Below the pieces are notes generated by a model. It was given only the letters and a program-made list of their open reading frames with translations. It made no database searches and had not been told where the DNA came from. From Lytechinus variegatus (lineage: Eukaryota > Echinodermata > Echinoidea > Temnopleuroida > Toxopneustidae), in the NCBI RefSeq assembly GCF_018143015.1, contig NC_054743.1, forward strand, positions 65,315,244 to 65,379,243: a stretch of 64,000 nt of DNA, read 5' to 3'. Below are positions 9,163 to 53,243 of the stretch, piece by piece. The first letter of the stretch is position 1. Each line of letters begins with the position of its first letter. The translations under genes were made by a program, and so were the position numbers.

Positions 9163-9722
9163 AACAAATTTACCGTCAGCCAATCATGGTGAAGGATTTC
9201 AGTAGCTTTTGATTGTTATCATTTTTTGATCATAACAAGTTTTATAAAATGGGTCCCAGGGTAAATGCACTGATCCGAGAACCTTAATGAGAATGTTCGG
9301 TTTGGAACTCTCCGAGAGCAGCAATGCAATTTCATAGGTGCTCTATGCGTGGACAGGTGTTGTTTCTAGTTAAGGAATATTGTCAAGCTTCCTTTAACAC
9401 TACATACCAATTCCAACAGCCACGATGAAGAACGGACACTTGTTAAGCTAGTACTGGGAAAGTACTAGCTGTATACCACATTAACCAGATTAAGTTTAAG
9501 ATTAAGATATCTGCTACCGAATTTCTAAATCCATCGACAAAGACTACTTCGTGGTGCACAATCGATAAATGTGTGTCGACGCATGCCAATAGCATCTCTT
9601 CGTCTTGGTTGCTGAATATTTCATGCTATCTGTTGTGGACCTTCAGAGTATCTGATAAACTATTAACTACCTTATTAATGATCTTGTTGAATCATAGAAC
9701 GGATATCAATTCAACTGAAGAT
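9163..9722. other. Upstream region of the GPCR
   Basis: No gene and no clear TATA box were seen. The receptor frame stays open upstream of its likely ATG back to about 9570, but the extra residues begin from a non-ATG codon and do not look like a receptor N-terminus. Confidence 0.3.
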
Positions 9723-10700
9723 ATGCAAGGATTTGAATTCACGAGGAACGGAACGACCGGAAGAACTGAAAACCTAGATCGTATAAGGGGATCGTTATGT
9801 ATATTGAATATTATTCTTTCTTATTTGTTAAATGGTACACTTTTGGTTGTCATTTATCGTCAACGAAATCTGCAGGAATACATGCGAATTCTATATCAGA
9901 TCATGACCATATCTTACCTAGTCATGACAACCACGTGGGGTGTTTGGATAATGTTCGCATTCTCCTTCAGTGACTACAAGACATGTTTGATTATCAGTAT
10001 GGTCTTTCCATTCTTGAATGTCGTGGCTCTGTGGTCCATAATGTTATGCCTCTGCGGTGTTAGTTTCAACCTCTATCTCTCAGTCACACGACCTCTCCGC
10101 TATCACACAATTGTAACTAGAAAAAGATTCTTCTGTATTCTTTCAATGGCTTACTTGTTGATACTGGTGACGTGTGGAGTGCTTTCTCCGGTTCCCGATT
10201 CTCCCTTCATTACGTTATTCATAGACCAATGTCAATCTCTTCCAGTCGTGCAAAAAACTCCAATATTCTGGATCAACTACGTTTATATTTCTCTCCCAGT
10301 ATTCGTGACGACCGTATGTACAACCTTCATTAATATCAGGCTTCTGATCATTGCCAGGAAGAAATCAAAGGAGGTAGAAAACCTAGAAAGACCGCGCGAA
10401 GAAATGGACTTACAGCATAGACAGCTACAGAATGGAGCTGACCTACAAGTGGGTGGCAACGTGGAACGTCGAAAGAGAAGATTGTTCAAAGGTTTGGTCA
10501 CCACCCTCATCCTGACATGTTCGTTTTGTATCTCTTGGGTACCGTACCTTTTCATCGCCATACCAACGAATGGGATATTGCAGGCAATCTTGATCTTTTT
10601 TCCTTTGAACAATACGTGGATACAGCCTATTGTGTACTTGTTGACGAATTCCGAGGCAAGAGGACTATTCTTGAAGTTTGTAAGGTCTTGCTGCCTCTAG
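9723..10700 (+). CDS. Rhodopsin-like orphan G-protein-coupled receptor, single exon
   Basis: A seven-helix receptor of 325 residues from the ATG at 9723, expected in the plasma membrane. I chose this start because it leaves a short N-terminus with an N-G-T glycosylation site before helix 1. The frame opens earlier at about 9573 but only from a GTG. Helices lie near residues 23-45, 56-80, 88-120, 134-156, 181-212, 255-280 and 286-307. C88 and C170 could form the usual extracellular disulfide. The end of helix 3 reads NLYLSVTRPLRY, so the family's DRY is NLY. Helix 6 has CISWVPY. Helix 7 ends QPIVY in place of NPxxY. Intronless, diverged receptors of this kind form large lineage-specific expansions in sea urchins (known for the group). 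The ligand is unknown. A broken paralogue follows at 11398. Confidence 0.85.
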   Translation: MQGFEFTRNGTTGRTENLDRIRGSLCILNIILSYLLNGTLLVVIYRQRNLQEYMRILYQIMTISYLVMTTTWGVWIMFAFSFSDYKTCLIISMVFPFLNVVALWSIMLCLCGVSFNLYLSVTRPLRYHTIVTRKRFFCILSMAYLLILVTCGVLSPVPDSPFITLFIDQCQSLPVVQKTPIFWINYVYISLPVFVTTVCTTFINIRLLIIARKKSKEVENLERPREEMDLQHRQLQNGADLQVGGNVERRKRRLFKGLVTTLILTCSFCISWVPYLFIAIPTNGILQAILIFFPLNNTWIQPIVYLLTNSEARGLFLKFVRSCCL

Positions 10701-20205: not shown

Positions 20206-21311
20206 ATTAAAATATAATAAAGTTTACATCGCTACAAAGAATACCTCCTGGTCATCCAAGCGTGAACACGCACCACATAAATATGGTATCAAATTTGGGG
20301 GAACGTATTCTTTCAGGTCATATATAATGATTATGTGTTCATGGCATACCTTAAATTAGGGATGTGTGATGTTTCATTTTTGTTTACTCACACGGTATAT
20401 ACAGTATAAATGGAGTGGGCGCAGGGGGCACCCACTCACTCCTACGAACAGAAGTAACGACTTCAATTGGTATTCAGAGACCGAGGATCTCTGCATGGGT
20501 TGTGCAATCATCCATTGATCTTTCATTGTCCATACGAGTTTACAGATATTTGAACTGTTCACATGGTCGTGCTTCTGTGGTTTGTATGTATAGGCTACCG
20601 ATTCAAGTCATGGAATTGGGTGAACTTCACACGAATGTGAAAAATACACAACACAACATTGCTTTATATTTATTCATGTTGGCTTAATCTTGTCCCCCAT
20701 ATTGGTCTGGTATTTCGTGCAATCAAAAATTCCTTGACAATAAGCATAAGGATGAAAGGTGAAATGTGCATATAGATACGTGAATTATAGGGTACCTTCT
20801 ATTTTGACGTGTGAAATAGACGTTCATAGTTTCATCTGCCAAGCCAGGAAAAGTGATCAGGTTAAATGTAACCAACATAGCCGGAGCAATTGACAACAAA
20901 CATATGTTAAGCCCCTAATAATGGTCGGGGAGCAAGACACCTTGGCCCCCTGAATCCCCTGGTATATATTTAAGAACCCGTGGTCGCACGTGTGTACTGT
21001 ATATCTTTAAGTTTAAGTACCACTGTCACTACTACTGTTACTAGGGGTAGACCCTGGATTACATGTAGATATAGGGAGGGGGCACATTGACAAGCAATGA
21101 AAAAATAATTACGATAAAGGCCTATATTACACGGTTGTTATTTTGTAAACATTTTTTTTTAACAAAGGGAAAATTTCGGTAGGCGAAGCAAATAGGCCCC
21201 AGGATCAACGCCTGAAGGTAGTACTTATTCAACTATATGCGCATCCACAAGCAAGCTTACATGTAACGTTGTAATGTTCTTACTTTCATTCAATTTTGTT
21301 CAGACTCATGC
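20206..21311. other. Region upstream of the NLR gene
   Basis: No exon recognised. A TATATATTTAAG box at about 20963 lies 350 bases before the likely NLR start codon and could be a core promoter, but TATA-like words are common in this AT-rich DNA. Confidence 0.25.
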
Positions 21312-24300
21312 ATGCTGTTACGATATCTCTGTTCTCTGACCAGGTTTATTTCACTACCACTTTTCAGGAAGCCTACTCTGAGGAAAAATGAACTTCTCGA
21401 GCTATCCCGTAAACTGAGCTTTAGTGACGTCACTGAAGTTCTACATCGGCTAACATGTACCATCCCCCGGGCACGAATCGACGATACCCGAGGCAACCCA
21501 GACCGGGTCTATAAACTGCTTCTGGAGTGGCACAAGAGCTGTGGGGCGCCAAGTGAAGCTAGAGCGAAACTTTCCGTTGCTCTTTCACTTTCTGGTAGAC
21601 AAGACCTGGCCGATGAACTTGAATCAAGTATGTTAATTTTGAGGATATTTGGGTACCCCTGTTCCTTAATTTAGACAAAATTTAAATTCGCAACCCACCC
21701 TAGGTCAAATATGCTATTCTGATTGAATCATGAAAAATGATTGAATTTGGTAAAAAAAACTGCATCAATTCAACTTTCCAATAATTTATGTCTTTTTCTG
21801 TATGCATAAATGGAATCGCTGGTCCCAATACATGTCACCACACCATAAGCATGTGAAATTCCACAAAATTACGGCCATCTTTAATAGATTTGGGGCTTGC
21901 ACAATTTTGCTTTAGACCCGAGATCATCAATATTGTCACTTTATGTCGGGATGTAGGACGTGGAACACACAAACACTGTGAACACCGTTCCATAAGTAAA
22001 ATGAAAAAAAAAAACATGACCATCGTATAGCCCACTCCTTATTGAAGCAACCATTATCTTTCTCTTGTTCTTTCAGATGAAATCTTACATGTTACCCTAT
22101 GTCGACAGATTCTCGCCTTTAGGTATGAGAGCCTGTTGGAGGAAGAAAAATGGAAAGATGGCTATTTCATCAAACCAAGGCTAAAGCATCTCAGTGATTC
22201 GGGGATATCTGAACAACCTGCTTTTGATCCTTACGAGTGCTTGGCAATGCCAGGGAAGAGTATCATCATAGAGGGTGAAGTGGGAATGGGGAAGACGATG
22301 CTTATGAAAGGCATTTTGGCCGAGTGGGTAAGGAGGTATAAGAGAGGAGTGTCTCTGCCTCTCTTATTCTTTTTGGCCAGCGACGAAATCAAGGAAGAAG
22401 ACACACTGCATAGTGTAATCTACCGGAAATATTTCGGCAGTTGTGAAGGCATCACAGAAAACGAACTTTCTGATTACATGATTGGGGACCCACATGGATG
22501 TTTGATCGCCATTGATGCAGTTCCTAAGATGCGATCATTATTGAAGACTCAAATTGGAAGGTCTTTCCAAAGCAATATGGGAATATCAAGCTACGAATTG
22601 TCTTTGATTATCACATCCAGGCCAAGAGATTCGGCTTATTTCAGTTCGGATCTGAAATTCAAGATCGACTCCTTAAATGCCGAAGAAGTAGAGATGTACG
22701 TCCGGAATACCTATTCATCCCCTAAAGATAAGGAACATGGAAGCAAACTCGTAGAATTCCTTCAAAGGAATCCCATCGTTTGCAATGATCTGTGCTCCAT
22801 TCCACTTCTATGTGGTGTGATGTGTAGACACTGGAGCATTTGCCGACAACAAGAGAAAAGTCACATGCAACAGCGAATGGAATTTTGCCATGGTATTACC
22901 CACGTTTCTAAGTTGGTTGCTGAAGCATTGGTACACGATAAAATCACCGACATTAAGCCCCTGCTTTTCCCCACACCAGGTTTCAATTTCCTTCTACAGT
23001 TGAAGAATTCGGGAGACTGTGGTAACACAGCTCATGCAGACGACCTCCTGCAGAAGAACATGGAAAATCTCGGCCAAGTGGCATTTAAGAAATTGAAAAA
23101 GATTCAATCTCTTTTCGGGAAGCCGATTTTACCGTTTGTCCGAGATCTTACAAGATAGCTTGTCTAACGAGAGTTCTGGTGAAAAGAGGAAGCTGCATTG
23201 AATTTTTCCACCCGATCATTCAAGCCTACTGTGTAGCTGCCTACATCGTCAAACTCCACCATCGGGGAACCAGGGAGTTCAACAAAACTCTATGTGAATT
23301 AGATAGCTGCGTATCCTCTTATCGCAAGTGGGTCTACAGGTTTGTCTCTGGAGATAGTCACATCGAAACAGCAAAAGATGTTATCAATCATCTTGCACGA
23401 AAAAGTTCCACTCACAACATCCTCTGCGAGAGCCTCGCAGAAGTATATGAGAATTACGATACGCTTCAGGATGAACATCCGGTTATTGTGCCTCCTGATT
23501 TCCACGACATTACATGGCCCTCAGGTATCGTTCTGAAAGATCCCACCTCACGCACCCTAGGAGGGTTCTATTCAGTTGCCAAGTATGCCAATAACGCCAT
23601 AAGCGAAGTCACGATACACAAAATGTCCTCGTATGGTGATGAGGAAATTCAGAACCCGCAAGCTTTTCAACAATTGCAAGAACTTCGACTTAACTTAGGT
23701 GCCTTGTTTATGACAGAATGTGACCTTCACCGGTGTACTCTCCTCTTCAAGGCGCTGATTCAAAGGACATTGCGGGTACTTGATTTGTCCGGTTCAACAT
23801 CAATAGAAGACCTGAGCGATGCTCCCGAACAATTTCTATCATGTCTCCCTGACCTCACTACTCTCAGACTTCCAAACATGGACCAATATCCATGTCTGCT
23901 TCTGGCATCTCTTCCAGATTGCTGTGCAGGACTTAAGGAATTGTCGCTGGCATTTAGGAGATTTTGCAGCCACTCTGGGAGCTGCATGGAATGTAACAGT
24001 CGTTTCGAGAAATTGGAGACCTTGGCGATTAAGTGCCCTAGCTCCGTGGTACGATCGCAACTAGCACATATCATATCATGCACCAACATCTTAGGAAGCA
24101 TGTCCTTGGCATGTGAAAGAATTGACGAGGATTTTATTGAGTCTCTTGAAACCTTGAGACACGTACATAGGGTTCTTGTTGAAGTAAATTCAATCGAGCG
24201 GGATACACTAGGTTGCCTCCTCCAAAAGATCCCGGGTCTCAAACAATTCAAATTGGCGTTTGGTGGGAGGCACGAGGCTGAATTAATCAATACATTCACG

Positions 24301-26136
24301 GCACTTTCGTCTTCCAGCAATATCAGTGAGCTAGATGTCAGTTACATTATTCCGGGTACCCCTTATTCAGATCGACCACCACCAAGTCCTGCACTCATGA
24401 GGAATATGCACGACCTGATTGTCAAGCTCCGGAACCTCAGGATTCTAGCCATGACGGATGTACCCCTTGGCAACACGGCAACTCTTGAAATACTCCAAGA
24501 TATGAGGTCTGAAAAGATCACTGTAACTGACTTACGGTAAATAAGAATTTTTTAACAATAAATATTCTTAAGACAGTATCACCATTGAAATTTTCAGACG
24601 ATGTTTACGCGGATTCGAATAGCTCGTTGATGTATTTTTAATGAATTATTTTATCGCTTTTTAGTTTGTGTCAATTAATCTGCAAAATATAAGTTCTTTT
24701 AAAATGATCCTCATATTTTTCACAGACTTGTTTCGAAACCTCCAATCCCCATGTTAATCCTAGAAAATAGTTTGAGTTTAAACCGTTTATCACACAAATG
24801 TGATGACGAAACGAGAAAAAATGGTTTTGTTGAACGGCATGTAATGATTGTAATAACGGACACTTAATAAAATGTGTAGTCAAAGAATCGTTTCATCTGT
24901 AACTCCTAATTAAATAATTCATGTAAAACTAAAGGAAACTGCCAGTTCTGACAAAAAAAAGACGATATACTTTTGTTGTTTCTCCCCAGACTTATTCGAT
25001 GCAATACGCAATCCAGTGGTCCCTTCGAAATCTGTAGAGAGATCCGAAGAAAGGGCTGTGACGTAACAATCGTCCATGGGACACCCGGTTGCAAGCATTC
25101 GGAGGTAGGTTATCAGTGTAGATGTTTTATAACCACACTTTGTGGTCCATAAGACAGAAAGAAAAAAACAGTATCCTACAAGATGAGGTGTGATTACCTA
25201 CACATTTTCTTGAAGTTTTGGATTCAGTAGCATCAGCTTGCTTCTGCACATATTCTTCTCTTCCGTTCACTTAACATGTTATAATATGCACATCAACTTG
25301 AATGTTGTACTTTTAATAAGTTAAAATTTGAAAGAAAAAAAAGCGCTTGCATGTTTTAATGAATTTTGAACTATATGATTTGGTTTCAATTGTTGGAGTT
25401 ACGTACATTTCAAGGAAACTCCTGGGAAGAAACTTTCATCAAATATGAAGTGCGTCCAATAATTATTTACTTAATTTATTTTTGTATCGCAAACTCCTAT
25501 TTTGACATTCCTTTTTGCCTCAAGCAGCCAACTGAATCAAGGGGAGGGCAGTCGGTTATTGGTGCAGAAGGAATACAGCTATCCAGAGATGCGCGGGATG
25601 ACAGGGGTGGACAAGCAACTCGTCCCAAGAGATCGAAATCGTGGCGACCGACGATTCCTTTACAACGGCCGTCAGTTGAATCTACAGAAGATAATGAACT
25701 CATGCCAGAGATACCGCCTCCGAAGCGGTCTTCCTCGAGACATCAGTCAAAGGCTGTGGTGTCTCCTGAGGGATCTTCTTCCGGAGTAGGGGACCCACAG
25801 ATGACGTCAGCCGAGGAGCGTTTGCTGATGGTTTCTCTTCCGGTTCTTTTACCTCACACTCTCAAAATGAAGCTTTCAGAGCAACTCCAATCCAATACCT
25901 TCACAGGCAATGACTGGAGAGCTCTTGCTGAAAAATTTCACATCGATAAGTATGCAGCTCGCATGAGTAGACATCCAAATCCTCCGGAAGCACTGTTCGA
26001 CGTTGCTATGGAGAGAAGATGTTTTACATCACTTGAAGAATTGGCAGATGTATTTGAGAGCATGGAACGGGAGGATTGCAAACATGAAGTCATGAAGTAC
26101 ATGCAGCAAATGAACGTCAGTATACCAAAAAATTAA
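21312..26136 (+). CDS. NLR immune receptor: Death-NACHT-LRR-Death, four exons, one frameshift
   Basis: Exons at 21312-21627, 22077-24536, 24990-25104 and 25528-26136. All junctions are GT-AG and the phases fit (1, 2, 0). Restoring one base in exon 2 gives about 1166 residues. Exon 1 holds a Death-fold domain (ELLELSRKLSFSDVTEVLHR, VYKLLLEWHKSCG, LADELES). Exon 2 has a NACHT ATPase: Walker A GEVGMGKT near residue 172, sensor-1 ITSRP near 284, and a Walker B that reads CLIAIDAVPKM. Leucine-rich repeats follow (LRVLDLSGS, LPDLTTLRLPN, ISELDVSYI) into exon 3. Exon 4 has a Ser/Pro-rich linker, then a second Death domain (LPVLLPHTLKMKLSEQL, NDWRALAEKFHI, LADVFESM). NLRs of this class sense danger signals and recruit Death-domain adaptors in the cytoplasm (family knowledge). 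The A run at 23096-23100 is one base short, shifting frame between NACHT and LRR. This could be decay or an assembly error. Confidence 0.8.
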
Positions 26137-26495
26137 GCTCGTGCTTCACGCTCGCATTTGATTGTTTCAGACACACAGCTTGTTCTTTATTTAAATAAAA
26201 ACTCGCTTAGACTGTCCAGTTTTCAGGTCGGAATATCAAAAATTTTGAGCTCGCTCTTCGCACTCTCATTGTTTAATTGGTGATACTTGTATCCTCTTCT
26301 TTAATCACTAACAACAGTCCTAATTGAGTTCTTTTTAACGGTATTATAATAAAATTTCGGCTCGCGCTTCGCGCTCGCTTTGTTTAGTTGGATACTTATC
26401 TTTATTCATGATAATGAAAACGACTCAGAATCTTCAGTTCTAATACATAACATATCAAAGAATTTTAGCTCGCGCTTCGCGCTCGCATGATATAT
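26110..26495. repeat. Array of AGCTCGCGCTTCGCGCTCGC units at the NLR 3' end
   Basis: Four units near 26130, 26255, 26355 and 26465, each with an AAAATTTT(A/G)GCTCGCGCTTCGCGCTCGC core, sometimes preceded by GGAATATC. This is the reverse orientation of the 8040-8460 array. The first unit overlaps the last codons and stop of the NLR. Confidence 0.55.
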
Positions 26496-27733
26496 TAAGA
26501 CCACATGAAATACCTTATCTTGTCTATAACCACAAAAACTAACATACTTATAACTTCACTCTTTAGTTAGGACTACCCCCTGAAAAACCAACCCAAAAAA
26601 TCAAATTATAGCGGCAAATCGAGAAAAATGTTGATGAAAATATGTGTCGGCCCCCCTATTGGCGAAAGCTGGATCCGCCCCTGACATATGTGTAATTGTT
26701 CGTCCGATGCAAATCTTCGGGTGATCTGCTATCCCAGTCCAACTATCGACAAAAGCTTCTCAGCTCTCCATTGTGACCTTGCATTTTCAAAGGAATATAT
26801 GCGTTTGTGTCTCCGTATTAATTGCGAAAACTCTCTATTGTGAGAATTTGTCGGGGTGTAACCTAGTTTTTCCTTGGAATCGTTCCTGATTGTAAAGTTG
26901 TGGTCTATCACAGTGGCATAGTGAGCCCCCAAAATATGAGGAGGCACGATATGACGTCTGTGGAAAAAAAATCTAAAAAAATCCTGAGCTCGCGACGTCA
27001 GCAAGCCAAAACTTTGAACTTTGAATATTCGAATTATTTGCATCAGATTTTGACATATTTTGAAAATAACATCACACAGTACCCCCCGTTTCTTTCCTTT
27101 TCTACTTTTTCTTTCGTGAATTTCTTTTAAAGGGGTGGGGGTAATGATCCTGCTCAAGATTCCATTTGTGCCCCAGTGGTTTATCGTGCGGTTTTGAAGA
27201 GATGTAGTCAGGAATTGGCTTGATATCAGAATCGATCCTATATGCAAGATCACTGGGCCCAATTTCCGCGAGCTCTGACATGTCTAAGCTATGCTAAGGA
27301 AGCCAGTTATAGTTGCAGTTCCAGTGGATTTTTTTAACCTACTGTTTCTTCAAATTTTTGTTGTCAACTTAACCACGATCATTTTTTGTTGCCCTTATAT
27401 TTTGTAAATGGACTATATCATAAACTGTAAAAATGGTATTTCCAAATAATCATATCCAAAGCTGTGTTTTGTAAATGAAATGTATGATAACTCTTAATAG
27501 GATCGAGACATGATATTGTAGATTCGAGTTGCTACGCATTCATTGAAACGCTTACATGAATCTTTAGTCATATAAAAGGTGAAGATTATCGCTGAAGTGT
27601 TTTACCTCGGGGTCACCCTACAGACCCAAGTTATCAATATAAATGATGCATTAAATATTGTACACATAAAAACTAAGGGCTGATACAGGGTTCTGACAGG
27701 GTCTTGTCCTGCCCCTCTCCTTCATTAGACCAA
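26496..27733. other. Non-coding stretch with a hAT-like end
   Basis: At 26648-26690 the minus strand reads CAGGGGCGGATCCAGC then a G run, a typical hAT-type terminal sequence without a visible partner. The remaining sequence has overlapping open frames on both strands near 26730-27260 with no domain I recognise. Confidence 0.35.
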
Positions 27734-36400: not shown

Positions 36401-39400
36401 AACAAAAAACAGATATTTGATTCTTGTCAAAGACTCAGTTACATTTCAATTTATGCTTATAATGTGAATAAAGAATACTTTTTCAATCATAAATATTAGC
36501 ATCGATGCACTTACCAAACGATGATCAATACGATCGTTCTTTTCCGTAAGATAGGTGTTCGGAAAAGATCGGAAAGATTCGGATCACGATTCTTCTCAAG
36601 TGTTCCAGTTTCCTTGTGTGGACAATGAGCGGGGTAAAAAAAACCACATTATTAAAAACTCCGGTGTTGACTTACCCCCAGCCCGGAATCAGTAAAGTAT
36701 TAAGTGTACAAGCGAGGACTGTCGGTAGGAACCTGGTAAATCAATGATCATTATAGACCTATATAATTTACTTTAGAATCAAGGACATATTATATTATCA
36801 TTGCAAATCGAGGACTTTAAAGTGCAGAAATGCCCATCTATGCAGGAGTATATGATTTGGGTATGTTTGTGATTGAGCCGAGGACGTCCTCTCTTTGTGG
36901 TGTGAAATTTATGTGTGTGTTTTGCATTTACTACCTTGAGCATTGAAGCGCGCGCCCATATCACCCTCATGTACAGGCATGCACTCAGTTTCAGTCGTTT
37001 AAAAGATATTACAGAATGAAAAAAAAAAAAAAAAACATGCCTTATATATTTCAGAACAAAAGAACGGAAATAATTCCGTTTGGATTTTGAAAAAAAATTC
37101 TCGCTCTCTCCTGCATGCCCGGTCTCGGTGAACAGAATGCCTCGTCGTGGAATTATGCATACAAGACTAGAAGAAACAGGACTACACGTGACACGGGCCT
37201 AATCACAACTGGCCGGCAAAAGATATTCATTCGAGCCAACCCATTCTCAATTTTGAAATTTGATATTGTTGATTGACGAAAAAGAATGAATACGACTGAA
37301 AATCTACCACTGATTGTAGGGACGGTACCTACTGAACTTCCTTTTTTCCCACATTGGAAAGATATATCACTACTAATTAAAGAAACTATTGTTTTACTGG
37401 CGGAAGAATAAGGGCCATTTTACTCTCTCACGTGACGACTTTGTTCCCGTCAGATGTAGTCTTCATAAATGCCGATTTATTTTTAAAATGAGCCGGTCGA
37501 GGTAATCTTTTTCTGGTCAGAAATGGAATGTCAGACATATATCCTATCCACTGGTAGTAAACATTCAACCCTCGAATTTCCTCCTTATTTTTTAATGTTA
37601 TTTTTTAAAGCGCCACTTTAACACACGAGTCTATCGGAAATTATAAGCCTGTGACATCTTAGTCCAGATTGGACCTTGTTGTTTGGAAGTGCCCTTTTCC
37701 CAAAGCTAACATAGAGGGCACATGTCTCCAAATCTCTAATCAGCGCCAATCCACTCATCTTCCCTCCCCAACAAGGGAAGATGAGTTGACTGGCGCTGAT
37801 TAGAGATTGGGAGACATGTGCCCTCTATGTTAGCTTTGGGACTTCCAAACAACAAGGTCCAATCTGGCCTAGTGACATCTACACTATAGTTCCGAACGTG
37901 CCGAACGCACGATCCAACCAAATGAGCGGTCGGGTTAATTCAGTGTAACAGTTACGGTTTCAGGACGAGTTTTTACCAAGACCGGGCAGCTTTAAATCAA
38001 AGTAATCATTACCTTAGATTTGTAAATGTTGTGTTGGTAGAAGAAGTCGTCTTCGAGCTTGACCTTGTTTATCTCTGCTACCCTCCTAACGGTCTCTTGG
38101 GCTTGCTTGTATCGACCTTTGGAGATCTGCCAGCGGACTGATTCTGGAACGAAACTAGAATCAAAGAGGGAGTGGGCTTATATAACATCACCCAGGTTGA
38201 TATTCTTAATTTAGGCCTAGATCGTGTATCACGAAAGAACCTTCAAATCGGACAAAGATAATTGCTAATCGGAATAGAATGAATTATATGATTTTTTCCT
38301 TTCCCGGTTCACAATACACCGCTGTTTGTTTTATGAACTTTTTTTAATAGTTTTTAAACAGTTGACATAAAGATATGCTTAACTTATTTAAGCTTAAGTA
38401 TTCAAAATTGAATTTGTTTAAGATTTTAAGTACTTAATAACTACTGCACAAACAGTAAACTGTGTTGCATGAAAAGATAAAACAGAGTTTTTACTGGTTA
38501 AGGAAGTTTGGAGTTTTTATATTTTTTTGTAATTCACTCAGAAAACAATTACGATGTTGCGCCAAGGATGAGAAAAATAATGAAATAAATGAAACAAAAA
38601 TCAGCTCATTTTTATGCGCAGATTTTCATTTGCCGTGCTAGTCAATATTGTTAACGTGTTGGTCCGTGTAGCTGACGTGTTGGTCCGTGTTGCTGACGTG
38701 TTGGTCCGTGTATAGCTGACGTATTGATCCGTGTTGCTGATGTGTAGGTCCGCGTTGCTGACGTGTTGGTCCGTGTAGACGACATGCTCTGTCGGTATGG
38801 TCCGTGTAAATCCTTGTGAAGATGCCGTGTGTGCTGTCATCAATGCTCGTCGACGCTTAATCCGGGGCAAAACGATCCCGGACCTCCCCGGATTATGCCG
38901 GCATTGCCGTGTTGATCGGTGTCTATATGTGACTGGGGCTTTAATCATAAGGCTTTTTTGCACGTATGGTACTTATAAAAATATTTTAAGCCCCAGTCAC
39001 ATATAGACCTCGGGCCATCCCGGATCTGACCCGGGGTGGTCCGGGGAGAGATCCGTGTTGGCGCCTTGGGTATCCTTGGAGGTCCATGGTGGTCCGTGTT
39101 CGTACTTGAACGTCCGGGAGGCCAACACGGCAGTTTTTTATTAACTGTCAAAAACATCCGGCGTCATCCGTGGACTGCCGGGTAGATAAGCAATCCGGGA
39201 TGGTCCGTGTAGCTGATGTGTTGGTCCGTGTAGCTGCCTGTAGTATCCTTGGCAGTCCGTGTTCTTTTTTCCCAATCAAATCTGTAAAACGCTATTTACT
39301 TCACGAACTTTTCAGTAGTTGTTAAAAAGTTGACACCAACATGCTCAATTTATTAACATTAGTGATTAAATATTCAAAATTAAATTTGTCGTTCAAGATT

Positions 39401-42400
39401 TAAAGTACTTAAAAACTACTGTGTAAAACAGTAAACTGTGTTGTATAAACAAACAGCGTTTTTACTGGTTAAGGAAATTTGGAGTTTTTATATTACTTTT
39501 TAATAACAAAATCAAATAATGTTGCGACAAGGATGAGAAAAAGAATGAAATATCTAAATAAATATCAGCTGATTATTATGAGCAGATTTGCCGTGCTGGT
39601 CAATATAGCTGCCCTGTTGGTCCTGGAGCTGACGTGTTGGTCCGTGTAGCTGACGTGTTGGTCCTTGTAGCTGACGTGTTAGTCCGTGTAGCTTACGTGT
39701 TGGTCCGTATTGCTGACGTGTTGGTCCGTGTAGCTGACGTGTTGGTTCGTGTAGCTGACGTGATAGTCCGTATTGCAGACGTGTTGTTCCGTGTAGCTGA
39801 CGTGTTGGTTCGTGTAGCTGACGTGTTAGTCCGTGTTTCTGACGTGCATGTCCGTGTTGGTGACTTGTTGATCCGTGTAGACGACCAGATGATCCGTGTA
39901 GACGACGTGCTCTGTCTGCATGGTTCGTGTAGACCCTTGTGAAGATGCCGTGTGTGCTGTCATCAACGCTCGTCGACGCTTAATCCGGGGCAAAACGATC
40001 TCAGAACCTGCTTGGATCGTGCCAACATTGCCGTGTTGATCCGTGCGGATCCGTGTCTATATGTGACTGGGGCTTTATTGACGATGTCAGAGAAAATAGT
40101 GAACAACCGTAAATCGTAGCATCTTGATTATCTAAATCTAGGGTCTATGTCATTAGGTTTTTTTCTAGGAATGGTTTAACTTATAAAGAGGGGCCATTAT
40201 TACACAAAAGATAATGAAGCAATAAAACGGAGAAAAACAAGAAGAAATACTGAGAATCGTTGAAAATTGAAATCGTTGAAATATTGTATACATTTTTATT
40301 GTTGTTTGATATTTTTTATGTAACAGGACCGTGTTAAAAACAGTGTATATTATTTGAACATGTTATCCTGTATAAATATGTTTTAATAAATGAAATAAAT
40401 AAATAACTAAATAAATAAACCTAGAGCATACCATCAACAATGTAAACATAAAACAAAACAAATTTATACTTACATGAACACAAAGAAGTAGAGGACAAAC
40501 GTTAGGTGCAATGCAAGGAGAAGGTAACGCCAATTGTTGATGAAATAAGCGTATAATGTGAGAAGAAGATACCCAGCTGGGAAGGCGGTCGTCATGATGA
40601 CGCTAACGAATGCACGTTTAGACGGGCCAATGAACTCCGTAGCTGCAAAAGAAAAAGATAAAGTTTAAAGGCGGTTAGAACTTTTTCCAGAATTCCGAAT
40701 TGAAAAATCCGATTTACCGTCTAACTCAAGCATATATAACCCTCTAGGTCAGAAATGAAAGACTATCGATTAATAGATATCAATGGCGCAATTAGTCAAA
40801 GGATTTTGATGAGGAGGAGCTGAGTAATAAGATGGAGGACTTTCAACACTGAAAAGTTCTAAAAAGATGTATCTAATATTTCATTATTTCCCTTTCATTT
40901 TCGTTTTTCTTTTTCTTCACTCAAAAAGAAATGAATTGCAAATTTGGCTCTGTCAGTGCTAAATTATTATTTGTGCGAAATTGTTTTTTTTTTCCACCGA
41001 TCTCCAGACCCCAATATGACTTGCGTCTTCGGAATAAGAGTACGCATGCCATGAATGAATCAGCACCCTCAAATTGCTGGTACATGTACCCTTATAGGCC
41101 TGAGGCTTAAAAATATAATATATATATATATATATATATGTATAACAAAATACAAGGTGAATAAAAAAAGTGTTGCAGTGTGTGCGCAGTGTCTGGATTA
41201 TGGGTCTATTTTAGCTTTAAAAAATCATCTTTAGATGTGTGCAATTTCTATCAAAATTTGGATCATCAGTATTTTCATGGTGCAACTTAAGCATTTCTGC
41301 TGCTGCACATTGATTTTTGATGGATTTACTCAAGATTAAGCTGGATTTTTAATGGACTTTTTACCATCTCTAGACTACAGAAGGAAAGCAAGCTCCCTGA
41401 CTTCAGTCCCATCTACTGTATTTTGAGTAGGCCTAGAGTTGACAATCAAGCAGCAGATGACACTTGTACTTTCTTTCTTCTTCAACCGGTGCTACTACTA
41501 AAGCATTTTCATCCAAGTAAACTGTATCAATCTGCTCAGGTAGTTGTGATTAGTTTGTATGCTGAATTTTGAGACCGGTTTTTATCTCATTGCTGGATTA
41601 AGTTGTGAATGGTGTGTACATGTACTGTTATCATTTATTATATCATTGTAGACTCATTGTACTTTGCAGCCCTGAGGCTGATCTAAGGTCTGTGATTGAG
41701 TTACCCATTGTATGTGGTTCCTGATGATAAGCTTGGCCTAAAAAAAATGGCTAGATCTGTAACTGGCAAGATTATTTGCCTTACTTTGCTTCTGACAATC
41801 TTAAATATAATATACACTGAGAATTGTGTCTCTAGATCTACAAGGTCAAGGACATTGCTATTTGCAAGGCTGAAATGTACCAATAGCCATAGGTCATCAT
41901 CCAGCAAGCTTTCTATAGGGCATGCCCAAATAGGATTTACCAATAACCTGCCAACTGATCTTGAGGTTTTCACAAACTCTCTCCATCATCTTCGAGTGCA
42001 AAGGAAGGGCAACATTCACATGCTTAGTTCTACATGTCGTTGTAAGACTCTCGTAGCTGCTTATCTGACCCTGCTGCTCTTAACAAATGCATCAGATATT
42101 GAACTCAACCCAGGTCCTGCCAGCAAGTATCCTTGTCAGATTTGCACCTACCCGGTAACATGGCGACAACGAGGCATTGCTTGCGATGACTGTAACCAGT
42201 GGTACCACGTAGAATGCATGCACATGTCAACACCAGTTTATGAAGCTCTCGCTAATTCAAGTGTATCTTGGCAATGCATTTCTTGTGGAATGCCCCAGTT
42301 TTCTAGCAGTTTGTTCAACTCTTTTATCGTTGACACCAGCAATACCTTCTCCACACTGTCATCGTCCTACTCTGATGATAATGCAACAGTGCCATCAAGT

Positions 42401-45400
42401 CCTGGACCGCCTATAGCATCTTCTCCTTCCCGCCAGTCCAATAGAAGGCACCCAGTCACGGAAAGAAAGATGAAGATTTTAACAGTCAACTTTCAGAGTG
42501 CACGGAACAAAAAGGAAGAGATCGGAAATCTAATAGATTCTTCTTATCCGGATATTATCCTTGGCACTGAGACTTGGCTCAACAGCAACATCCATAGTGC
42601 TGAATTGTTCCCTCCAGAGTATGAAGTGATACGGAAGGATCGCTTTGACGGATATGGTGGTGTTCTCATAGCACTTAAAAAGGACATCATCTTTGAACAA
42701 CTACCAGATGATCCTAATCTTGATGTTGAAGCAATCTTTATCAAAGTAAGCCTTCCAAATAATAACTTCCTTATAATAGGTGCTTTGTATAGACCTCCTT
42801 CTAGTTCTGTCAACTATATGGAGAATCTCTGTCAATCTATAGAAGAAATTCACAATCAGCACCAAAGTTCTGTCATCTGGATGGGTGGGGACCTGAATCT
42901 ACCGGACATCGACTGGGATACAGAGTCGTCATCAGGTAACCAGTATCCTCTGCCAATCAAGCAAAGATTCTTGACGATGATCCACAATTGTGATCTACAA
43001 CAGATGGTGTCCTTTCCTACTAGGTTGAACAGCTGTCTTGACATTTTCCTGTCAAATAGGCCCACTCTTCTTAGCAGGTGTATTGCCCTTCCAGGAATAA
43101 GTGACCATGATATCGTGCTAGTGGAATCCTCTGTTGTAGCACGCAGGAAAAGACTGGTGAAGAGGAAAGTATTCCTTTGGAAGCATGCTGACATGGAGGC
43201 CCTCCGAGAAGACTGTCTTGCCTTTCAACATTCCTTTACAGAGCAATTTGATAGGACGAGTCCTGTGCAAGTCATGTGGGACAACATCAAGTCTACCCTC
43301 TTACGTCTGATGGAAAAGCATGTACCATCTAAGATGACATCAACAAGATACAGTCAACCTTGGATCACTCGTTCATTGAAGCAGTTGACCCGTAGGAAGA
43401 AGCGATGCTTTGACAGAGCTAAGGCAAGCAACAACCCTGGGGATTACACCAAGTACTTGGATGTGAAGAAACAGGCAAAGAAAGCATGTAAAGCCGCTTA
43501 CTTCAAATATGTTGAAGATATTGTCAGCCCAGATTCAACCACCAATCCTAAACGATTCTGGAGTTACATTAACAGCAAAAGATGTGACTCATCTGGGGTA
43601 GCTTCGCTGAAGTCAAGCGATGAATCCTGAATAGACAGTTCTCATCTGTCTTTACTAGAAATGAAGACATGACTAACATGAAGGACATGGGTAGTTCTCC
43701 CTATCCCTGTATGGAACCCATCACCATACAATGCGATGGTGTGCAGAAAATCTTGTCTGGTCTACAAATCCATAAAGCCACTGGGCCCGATGAACTGTCT
43801 TCACGGCTATTGAAAAACCTGGACCGCGAACTCGCACCTGTTCTGACAGTCCTATTTCAAGCTTCCCTTGACCAAGGAGTTGTTCCAGCTGACTGGAAGA
43901 ATGCAAACATTGCCCCTGTCTTCAAAAAGGGAGAAAGATGTAAGCCAGAGAACTACAGACCGATCTCGTTAACATCAATGACATGCAAAGTTCTGGAACA
44001 CATTGTCCACAGCAACATTATGGACCATCTTGAAGACCATGACATCCTCTCTGATGCTCAGCATGGTTTCCGTAAAAAACGATCCTGTGTCTCACAACTT
44101 GCTCTTGCGGTCCAAGACCTTGCGAAGGGTATAGACAACAGAGAACAGATCGATGTCATCCTGCTAGATCTTGCCAAGGCCTTTGACAAGGTGCCACATG
44201 GGAGACTTCTTCATAAGCTTGATTTTTATGGCATACGGAACTCTACTCATGAATGGATAGCCGACTTTCTTGACAATCGCACGCAACAAGTACTCCTTGA
44301 AGGAACCATCTCTACCAAGTCCCAAGTGACATCGGGAGTTCCGCAGGGTAGTGTCGTCGGTCCGATGTTGTTCCTGATATTTATCAACGACCTACCAGAG
44401 TACCTGTCTAATGACACCACTGTTAGGCTCTTCGCAGATGACTGCCTAGTTTATCGCAAGATAAGGTCAGAGGAAGATGGTGCTCAACTGCAGGAAGACA
44501 TCAAGTCCTTGGAGCAATGGGAGGCTGACTGGCTGATGGAGTCAACCTCAAGAAATGCCAAGTCCTCCATGTAACCAACAAACGGAAGCCTATCATATTG
44601 CCATACATCCTTCATGGTTACACCTTGGAGAAAGGAGACACAGCAAAATATCTTGGAATCTACCTCCATCAAAAGCTCAGCTGGAATCATCACATCAGCC
44701 AGGTAGCAAAAAAGGCTAATTCCACCAGGGCTTTTCTTCAAAGGAACATTAGATCATGTCCTCGCAAAGTCAAGGTGCTCTGCTACCTCACTCTACTTAG
44801 ACCAGTCATGGAATATGGAAGTATCATCCGGGATCCTTTCACTCAAGCTAACATCATGAGGCTTGAAATGATACAGAGAAGGTATGCTCGCTTTGTTTGC
44901 AATGACCACCGCAGAACAAGCAGTGTCACCTCCATGCTCCAACAACTGCAATGGCCATCCCTGCAAGAAAGGAGAGCCCAGGCAAAGGTTGCGATGATGT
45001 TCTGCATTAAGAACTCGTTAATATCCATCCCGGAGGCTACTCTGATCCCATCTCTCCATTCCACATGCTACATGTAGGACACAGACACTGCAAAAAACTA
45101 CTTTCCTGACGAAACCAGGCTATGGAACGCTCTTCCACAGGTCGCCGTCTCATGTACCTCTCTTCCAAGTTTCAAAAGAGAGGTACAGAAAATCCAGCTC
45201 CGTTAACTTTCTACGGATGTCTTTTTAGCTGCACACTCTTGAGTTCATTTTAGACCCTTTATTTGAGACACTGTACATACATTGCACCTGCACAACAGTA
45301 CGACAATACGCCAGACGGTGGCCTGTACTTACAGAGAAGAAAAAGAAGAAGAAGAACGTATATAGAAGAGTTGATCAAATTTTCGCCCATAGGGCTTCAT

Positions 45401-52599: not shown

Positions 52600-52904
52600 T
52601 TGTTGTACATGTATTACGTTTACTACTATTACGTTTACTACTATTACTACTACTTCTACTACTATACTTCTACTATTACTATAAATACAACAACACCAAC
52701 TTCTATTACTACTTCTGCACTACTACTACTACTACTACCACTACTACTGCATACTACTACTACTACTACTTCTACTATTGCTACTACTTCTAATGCTACT
52801 ACTACTTCTACTAATTCTACTACTACTACTATACTGCAACTGCAACTACCACAACAACTTCTACGACATCTAGTACTACTACTACTACATTTGTTACTAA
52901 TTCT

Positions 52905-52968
<64 letters not shown>

Positions 52969-53055
52969 ACTACTACTTCTATTACTAATTCTTACTACTA
53001 CTTCCACTGCTGCTACTACTACTACTGCTGCTGCTGCTACTACTACTACTACTTT

Positions 53056-53099
<44 letters not shown>

Positions 53100-53110
53100 T
53101 TCCTAATACT
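52600..53110. repeat. Long ACT/TAC trinucleotide microsatellite
   Basis: About 500 bases dominated by TAC/ACT repeats with TGC and TTC variants; the longest clean runs are 52905-52950 and 53055-53100. All frames look like poly-Tyr, poly-Thr or poly-Val and are not genes. Confidence 0.85.
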
Positions 53111-53243
53111 ATTACTACTACTTCTAATAGTAATGACAGAATAACAAGGTTATGATGCTGACGATGATGATGATGGTATATGAAGATGATAATGTTGCCG
53201 ATGAGTAACAATAACCGCTCTTACAGTCTGCTGCTTTGCAAAG

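Follow-up and report, generated by a model that had tools for sequence, protein, structure and literature searches.

Organisation of the locus

Can a single NLR carry Death domains at both ends? This question is raised by a locus on contig NC_054743.1 of Lytechinus variegatus, which lies in a stretch of 64,000 nucleotides that was analysed here and is referred to as the window. An earlier note on this DNA had proposed that four exons at 21312-26136 (+) form one NLR, joining a Death-like domain, a NACHT domain with LRRs and a second Death domain. GT/AG boundaries are present at 21627/22077, 24536/24990 and 25104/25528, giving introns 1, 2 and 3 lengths of 449, 453 and 423 nt, respectively, and the phases agree across all three exon junctions. 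The predicted features of the gene are as follows.

Exon 1, 21368..21627, + strand: N-terminal Death domain of the NLR type, predicted from an own-genome Death profile, Pfam Death, the acceptor and the phases.
Exon 2, first part, 22077..23158, + strand: NACHT frame, with the NACHT match at 22262-22717; an in-frame stop closes the frame in the window copy.
Walker A, GEVGMGKT, 22274..22297, + strand: kept.
Walker B, CLIAIDAVPK, 22499..22528, + strand: aspartate kept, acidic pair after it lost.
Exon 2 frame overlap, 23089..23158, + strand: both frames open; site of the frame break, where the window copy and a second copy differ in length by one base, in a homopolymer run.
Exon 2, second part, 23089..24536, + strand: end of the NACHT-associated region and putative LRRs, in the other frame (LRR_4, LxxLxL count); one frame with NACHT in the second copy.
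Exon 3, 24990..25104, + strand: short; the LRR pattern goes on; entry phase 2, exit phase 0.
Exon 4, 25528..26136, + strand: terminal; basic linker (about 25528-25830), then a UNC5-type Death domain (Pfam match 25867-26097).
AATAAA, 26194..26199, + strand: 58 nt past the exon 4 stop; weak evidence.

The hexamer score of exon 3 in its own frame is -0.28, lower than the 0.05 obtained in one reverse-strand frame. Directly 3' of the gene, at 26135-26500, several repeats of a GCTCGCGCTTCGCGCTCGC-like motif were noticed by eye.

The N-terminal Death exon

To place exon 1 among the NLRs of the same genome, a comparison set of 20 NLR stretches of 9.9 kb was selected by us from 99 scored NACHT places, and a profile was built from 11 Death exons out of these stretches. 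In 15 of the 20 stretches, this profile found a Death exon ahead of the NACHT exon; the count includes the 11 profile members and one partial exon. Exon 1 as first delimited scored 26.5 bits with the profile, which rose to 27.4 bits after trimming at the acceptor, compared with 8.4 bits for the best of 5,000 shuffles, and the claim of a Death-like domain was therefore borne out. The Pfam comparison that the earlier note had suggested for both terminal exons gave a match to the Death family in each case (E 0.0038 for exon 1 and 0.00095 for exon 4), each under the gathering score; the cut-off is passed by two paralogous N-terminal NLR Death exons from this genome.

In a crude scan, 12 of the 15 NLR Death exons have entry phase 2, the same as exon 1, and 14 of the 15 have a phase-1 donor candidate, some also with other candidates. 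Exon 1 most likely starts at the acceptor at 21368 (alternative 21344), and the ATG at 21312 is probably intronic. It is clearly homologous to the ordinary N-terminal Death exons of this genome's NLRs and is itself an exon of that kind. A fold search with a structure model of exon 1 gave no informative match, and a first exon upstream of this Death exon was looked for and not found.

NACHT, LRRs and a frame break in exon 2

The NACHT domain that the earlier note had placed in exon 2 is well supported, with a Pfam match over the cut-off (E 4.5e-12) in the first part of the exon. The LRRs attributed to exons 2 and 3 are weak by Pfam, where the second part of exon 2 matches LRR_4 under the cut-off (E 0.00065). 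Strict LxxLxL motifs are enriched (8 compared with a shuffle mean of 2.2, a count reached in 9 of 5,000 shuffles), while a looser LRR pattern is not significant (12 compared with 8.9 expected; 813 of 5,000 shuffles).

The part of the proposal that failed is the single frame of exon 2. The NACHT frame ends at a TAG at 23156-23158, and the LRRs lie in a different frame that is open at 23089-24540; the hexamer coding signal moves to another frame between about 23,100 and 23,150. In addition, exon 2 (22077-24536) is 2,460 nt long, and because this is a multiple of three, entry phase 1 is incompatible with exit phase 2. The matching phases (1, 2, 0) from which a single transcript had been read are thus compatible at the junctions, but exon 2 of the window copy is not one open frame.

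A second copy on the same assembled chromosome

A second, inverted copy of the gene was found at 63.10 Mb on the same assembled chromosome (C4), 2.2 Mb from the window gene. It aligns with window positions 21016-26116 at 97.85% and again with 26148-26330 at 98.4%, with about 1.3 kb of extra DNA between its two aligned segments. All seven splice sites examined are common to the two copies. In the second copy, NACHT and LRRs are in the same frame, within an open NACHT-LRR exon of 831 aa, and the lesions lie elsewhere: exon 1 differs in length by one base, exon 3 has an extra codon's length, and the end of exon 4 is altered beside the extra DNA. Each half thus survives intact in one of the copies, yet the complete protein is encoded by neither locus as assembled: the window copy loses its frame in exon 2, and the one-base change of the second copy falls in exon 1. 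The one-base breaks of both copies sit in homopolymer runs (5 and 6), a kind of sequence in which assembly errors occur often, and we infer that the frame breaks are either young or assembly errors.

Two NLR pairs of this genome are comparable. L001/L002 and L003/L004 are each on one assembled chromosome, megabases apart, and are 98.1% and 99.6% identical, respectively; these pairs are recent duplicates or other haplotypes that were put into the scaffold.

The Death domain of exon 4

The assignment of exon 4 to the Death fold was confirmed from two directions, with the Pfam match below the gathering score as given above. Among solved structures, the closest to exon 4 by sequence is the Death domain of UNC5H2 (E 4.2e-5). 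In a single-sequence structure model, with a mean pLDDT of 59.9, residues 110-197 form six helices, and a Foldseek search with this model placed UNC5H2 Death chains at ranks 1-5, where the best match had E 6.4e-3 and a TM score of 0.70 by target length, and none reached E 0.001. By sequence and model alike, exon 4 encodes a basic linker followed by a Death domain of UNC5 type. The hexamer signal of this linker is separated weakly from other frames.

A genome search in which 15 of 15 candidates were scored returned exon 4 itself, the copy at 99%, two exons on C2 at 37% and 36%, and one exon on C6 at 25%. Both C2 relatives match Pfam Death, and the one whose upstream sequence was examined adjoins an exon that matches ZU5 (E 1.2e-23) and, under the cut-off, UPA (E 0.00025), so this relative looks UNC5-type. 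Neither exon 3 nor exon 4 of the window gene has a Pfam match to ZU5 or UPA (FIIND). At the C6 locus (L033), a weak TIR match (E 0.0019, under the cut-off) is followed by the Death exon, which could represent a TIR-Death adaptor.

A divergent NLR lineage

Comparisons across the genome indicated that the gene stands apart from the other NLRs. A Death domain lies on the same strand within 15 kb upstream at 24 of the 99 scored NACHT places (19 within 2 kb), and none of the 99 has one on the same strand within 15 kb downstream of NACHT. Likewise, a Death domain of the exon 4 type was found at none of the 20 NLR loci, where the best match (12.1 bits) was an N-terminal Death exon. For the LRR part, a genome search in which 54 of 54 candidates were scored matched only the gene itself and the second copy, while the NACHT part, for which 113 of 135 candidates were scored, gave 71 matches, namely itself, the second copy (98%) and 69 others that are only 18-26% identical. 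Only the best candidates were scored in the family scans, and the window gene is absent from their lists. Within those limits, the window gene appears to be a singleton NLR lineage in this genome, among the candidates scored.

The NACHT domain is also unusual in its Walker B motif, which reads IAIDAVPK in the window gene compared with DG-x-[DE]-E in all 20 other NLR loci, and which has zero substitutions between the two copies. Without the acidic pair behind Walker B, ATP hydrolysis may be weak or impaired.

One gene or several

The reading that we favour, with about even confidence, is that the locus is a divergent, singleton-lineage NLR with the layout [unfound first exon]-Death-NACHT-LRR-linker-Death, whose last Death domain is UNC5-type, which is functional or was until very recently, and which is present twice on the same assembled chromosome. 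We infer that exons 1-4 are probably spliced into one mRNA. This one-gene reading follows from the splice sites common to the second copy, the compatible phases, the preservation of the whole unit in that copy, and coding constraint. The earlier proposal of one gene with Death at both ends therefore stands as the best reading, although each assembled copy has a one-base frame break.

The coding constraint counts against an alternative in which both copies are decaying pseudogenes, so that the layout was once real, the breaks are true, neither locus now makes the protein, and the window locus gives at most a truncated Death-NACHT product. Each copy does carry a one-base coding length change, the last residues of the second copy are altered beside its extra DNA, and the LRR part alone has no purifying signal (2 synonymous and 6 nonsynonymous differences). 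Taken over the whole gene, however, the copies differ at 12 of 777 synonymous sites and 13 of 2,685 nonsynonymous sites (pN/pS 0.31, P 0.0043), and there are fewer differences in coding sequence (25/3,462) than in introns (34/1,314; P 1.1e-6). Synonymous and nonsynonymous differences number 1 and 0 in exon 1, 4 and 5 in NACHT, 2 and 1 in exon 3, and 3 and 1 in exon 4 (P 0.039 for exon 4). With the shared splice sites and the location of both breaks in error-prone homopolymer runs also speaking against decay, we consider pseudogenes unlikely, though a serious contender. It is extremely improbable that a very small intron or programmed frameshifting accounts for the frame change at 23089-23158 as a normal feature of the gene: the coding signal is strong on either side, but the second copy, which differs in length by one base here, passes through the region in a single frame, so that neither device is required.

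A different objection is that the NLR stops with exon 3 or shortly beyond it, exon 4 being part of another, small gene that encodes a UNC5-type Death domain. The domain is of a different type from the NLR Death exons, scoring 0.9 bits with their profile, which is no match; no Death domain resembling exon 4 lies downstream at any of the 20 NLR loci; and read-through past exon 3 meets a stop after 15 more codons. Against this, the 423-nt gap resembles the other introns and ends in a good acceptor of compatible phase, the coding signal drops off upstream of that acceptor by the hexamer measure, and the unit is kept together in the second copy. Intron 3 also has no AATAAA or ATTAAA, a weak point given an AATAAA background of 1.375 per kb and the two present in intron 2. 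A separate gene is, in our judgement, quite unlikely, and the single two-ended NLR is the reading considered below.

Possible mode of action and relationship to known systems

In such an NLR, the LRRs would sense a ligand and the NACHT domain would oligomerise, and the N-terminal Death domains, which are of the ordinary kind, would be gathered in this way, as in other NLRs of the Death type. The second Death domain, on its flexible linker, could offer a surface of its own for assembly with a Death-domain partner of another kind, and both ends may, as the earlier note suggested, recruit adaptors. Because the lost acidic pair suggests weak ATP hydrolysis, the protein may be more of a scaffold or bridge with slow reset than a cycling switch. 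The working mode would be somewhat like that of NLRP1, with C-terminal death-fold signalling, but without NLRP1's FIIND. We propose, as a speculative scenario that is unlikely to hold in full, that a UNC5-type Death domain was gained by exon shuffling and the NACHT hydrolysis motif was lost, so that a cycling sensor became a Death scaffold with two ends, linking Death signalling of the NLR type to a second Death partner of the UNC5 type.

The layout published for Death-type NLRs (NLRD), in the relevant passages of one account, is Death-NACHT or Death-NACHT-LRR (PMC11508797). DD-NACHT combinations are reported in amphioxus, sea urchin and Nematostella in a passage of PMC2575513, while passages of PMC8260672 describe cnidarian NACHT proteins combined with Death and with ZU5 and do not state the domain order. 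The window gene, with its Death exon, NACHT and putative LRRs, follows the order of the Death-type NLRs of sea urchin, amphioxus and sponge, and its exon 1 and splice phases match those of this genome's own NLRs. It departs from Death-type NLRs in the UNC5-type Death domain after the LRRs and in the altered Walker B, and from this genome's 69 other NACHT matches in the low identity given above. A literature search recognised no description of a Death-NACHT-LRR-Death layout.

Vertebrate NLRP1, for which a passage of PMC11508797 gives a C-terminal FIIND-CARD, is described in part of the literature as signalling through its C-terminal fragment. NLRP1 and the predicted product of the window gene both have death-fold domains at both ends, whereas the window gene has Death instead of PYD and CARD, and has no FIIND match in the exons searched. 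As compared with the UNC5 netrin receptors, which provide the best solved match for exon 4 by sequence and by fold, the exon 4 Death domain would be attached to an NLR, and there is no ZU5 or UPA match in the gene's exons. If the joined transcript is real, the gene would be an invertebrate counterpart of the NLRP1 layout, assembled from other parts, in animals whose Death domains are said to fill the roles of CARDs in vertebrate NLRs, according to a passage of PMC12909245. Comparing this singleton, which has an additional Death domain and a changed ATPase motif, with the large NLR family of the same genome would also allow a test of sensor against scaffold roles in a single set of NLRs.

Other features of the window

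Elsewhere in the window, a Rhodopsin-family GPCR exon is present at 9447-10697 (7tm_1 E 1.2e-12). Non-LTR retrotransposon-like ORFs occupy 41696-45074, with a PHD finger and endonuclease frame at 41696-43627 and a reverse transcriptase in another frame at 43624-44571. Two 21-bp tandem repeat arrays with nearly identical units lie at 38654-38778 and 39592-39909, and a long trinucleotide array of about 169 units spans 52621-53126.
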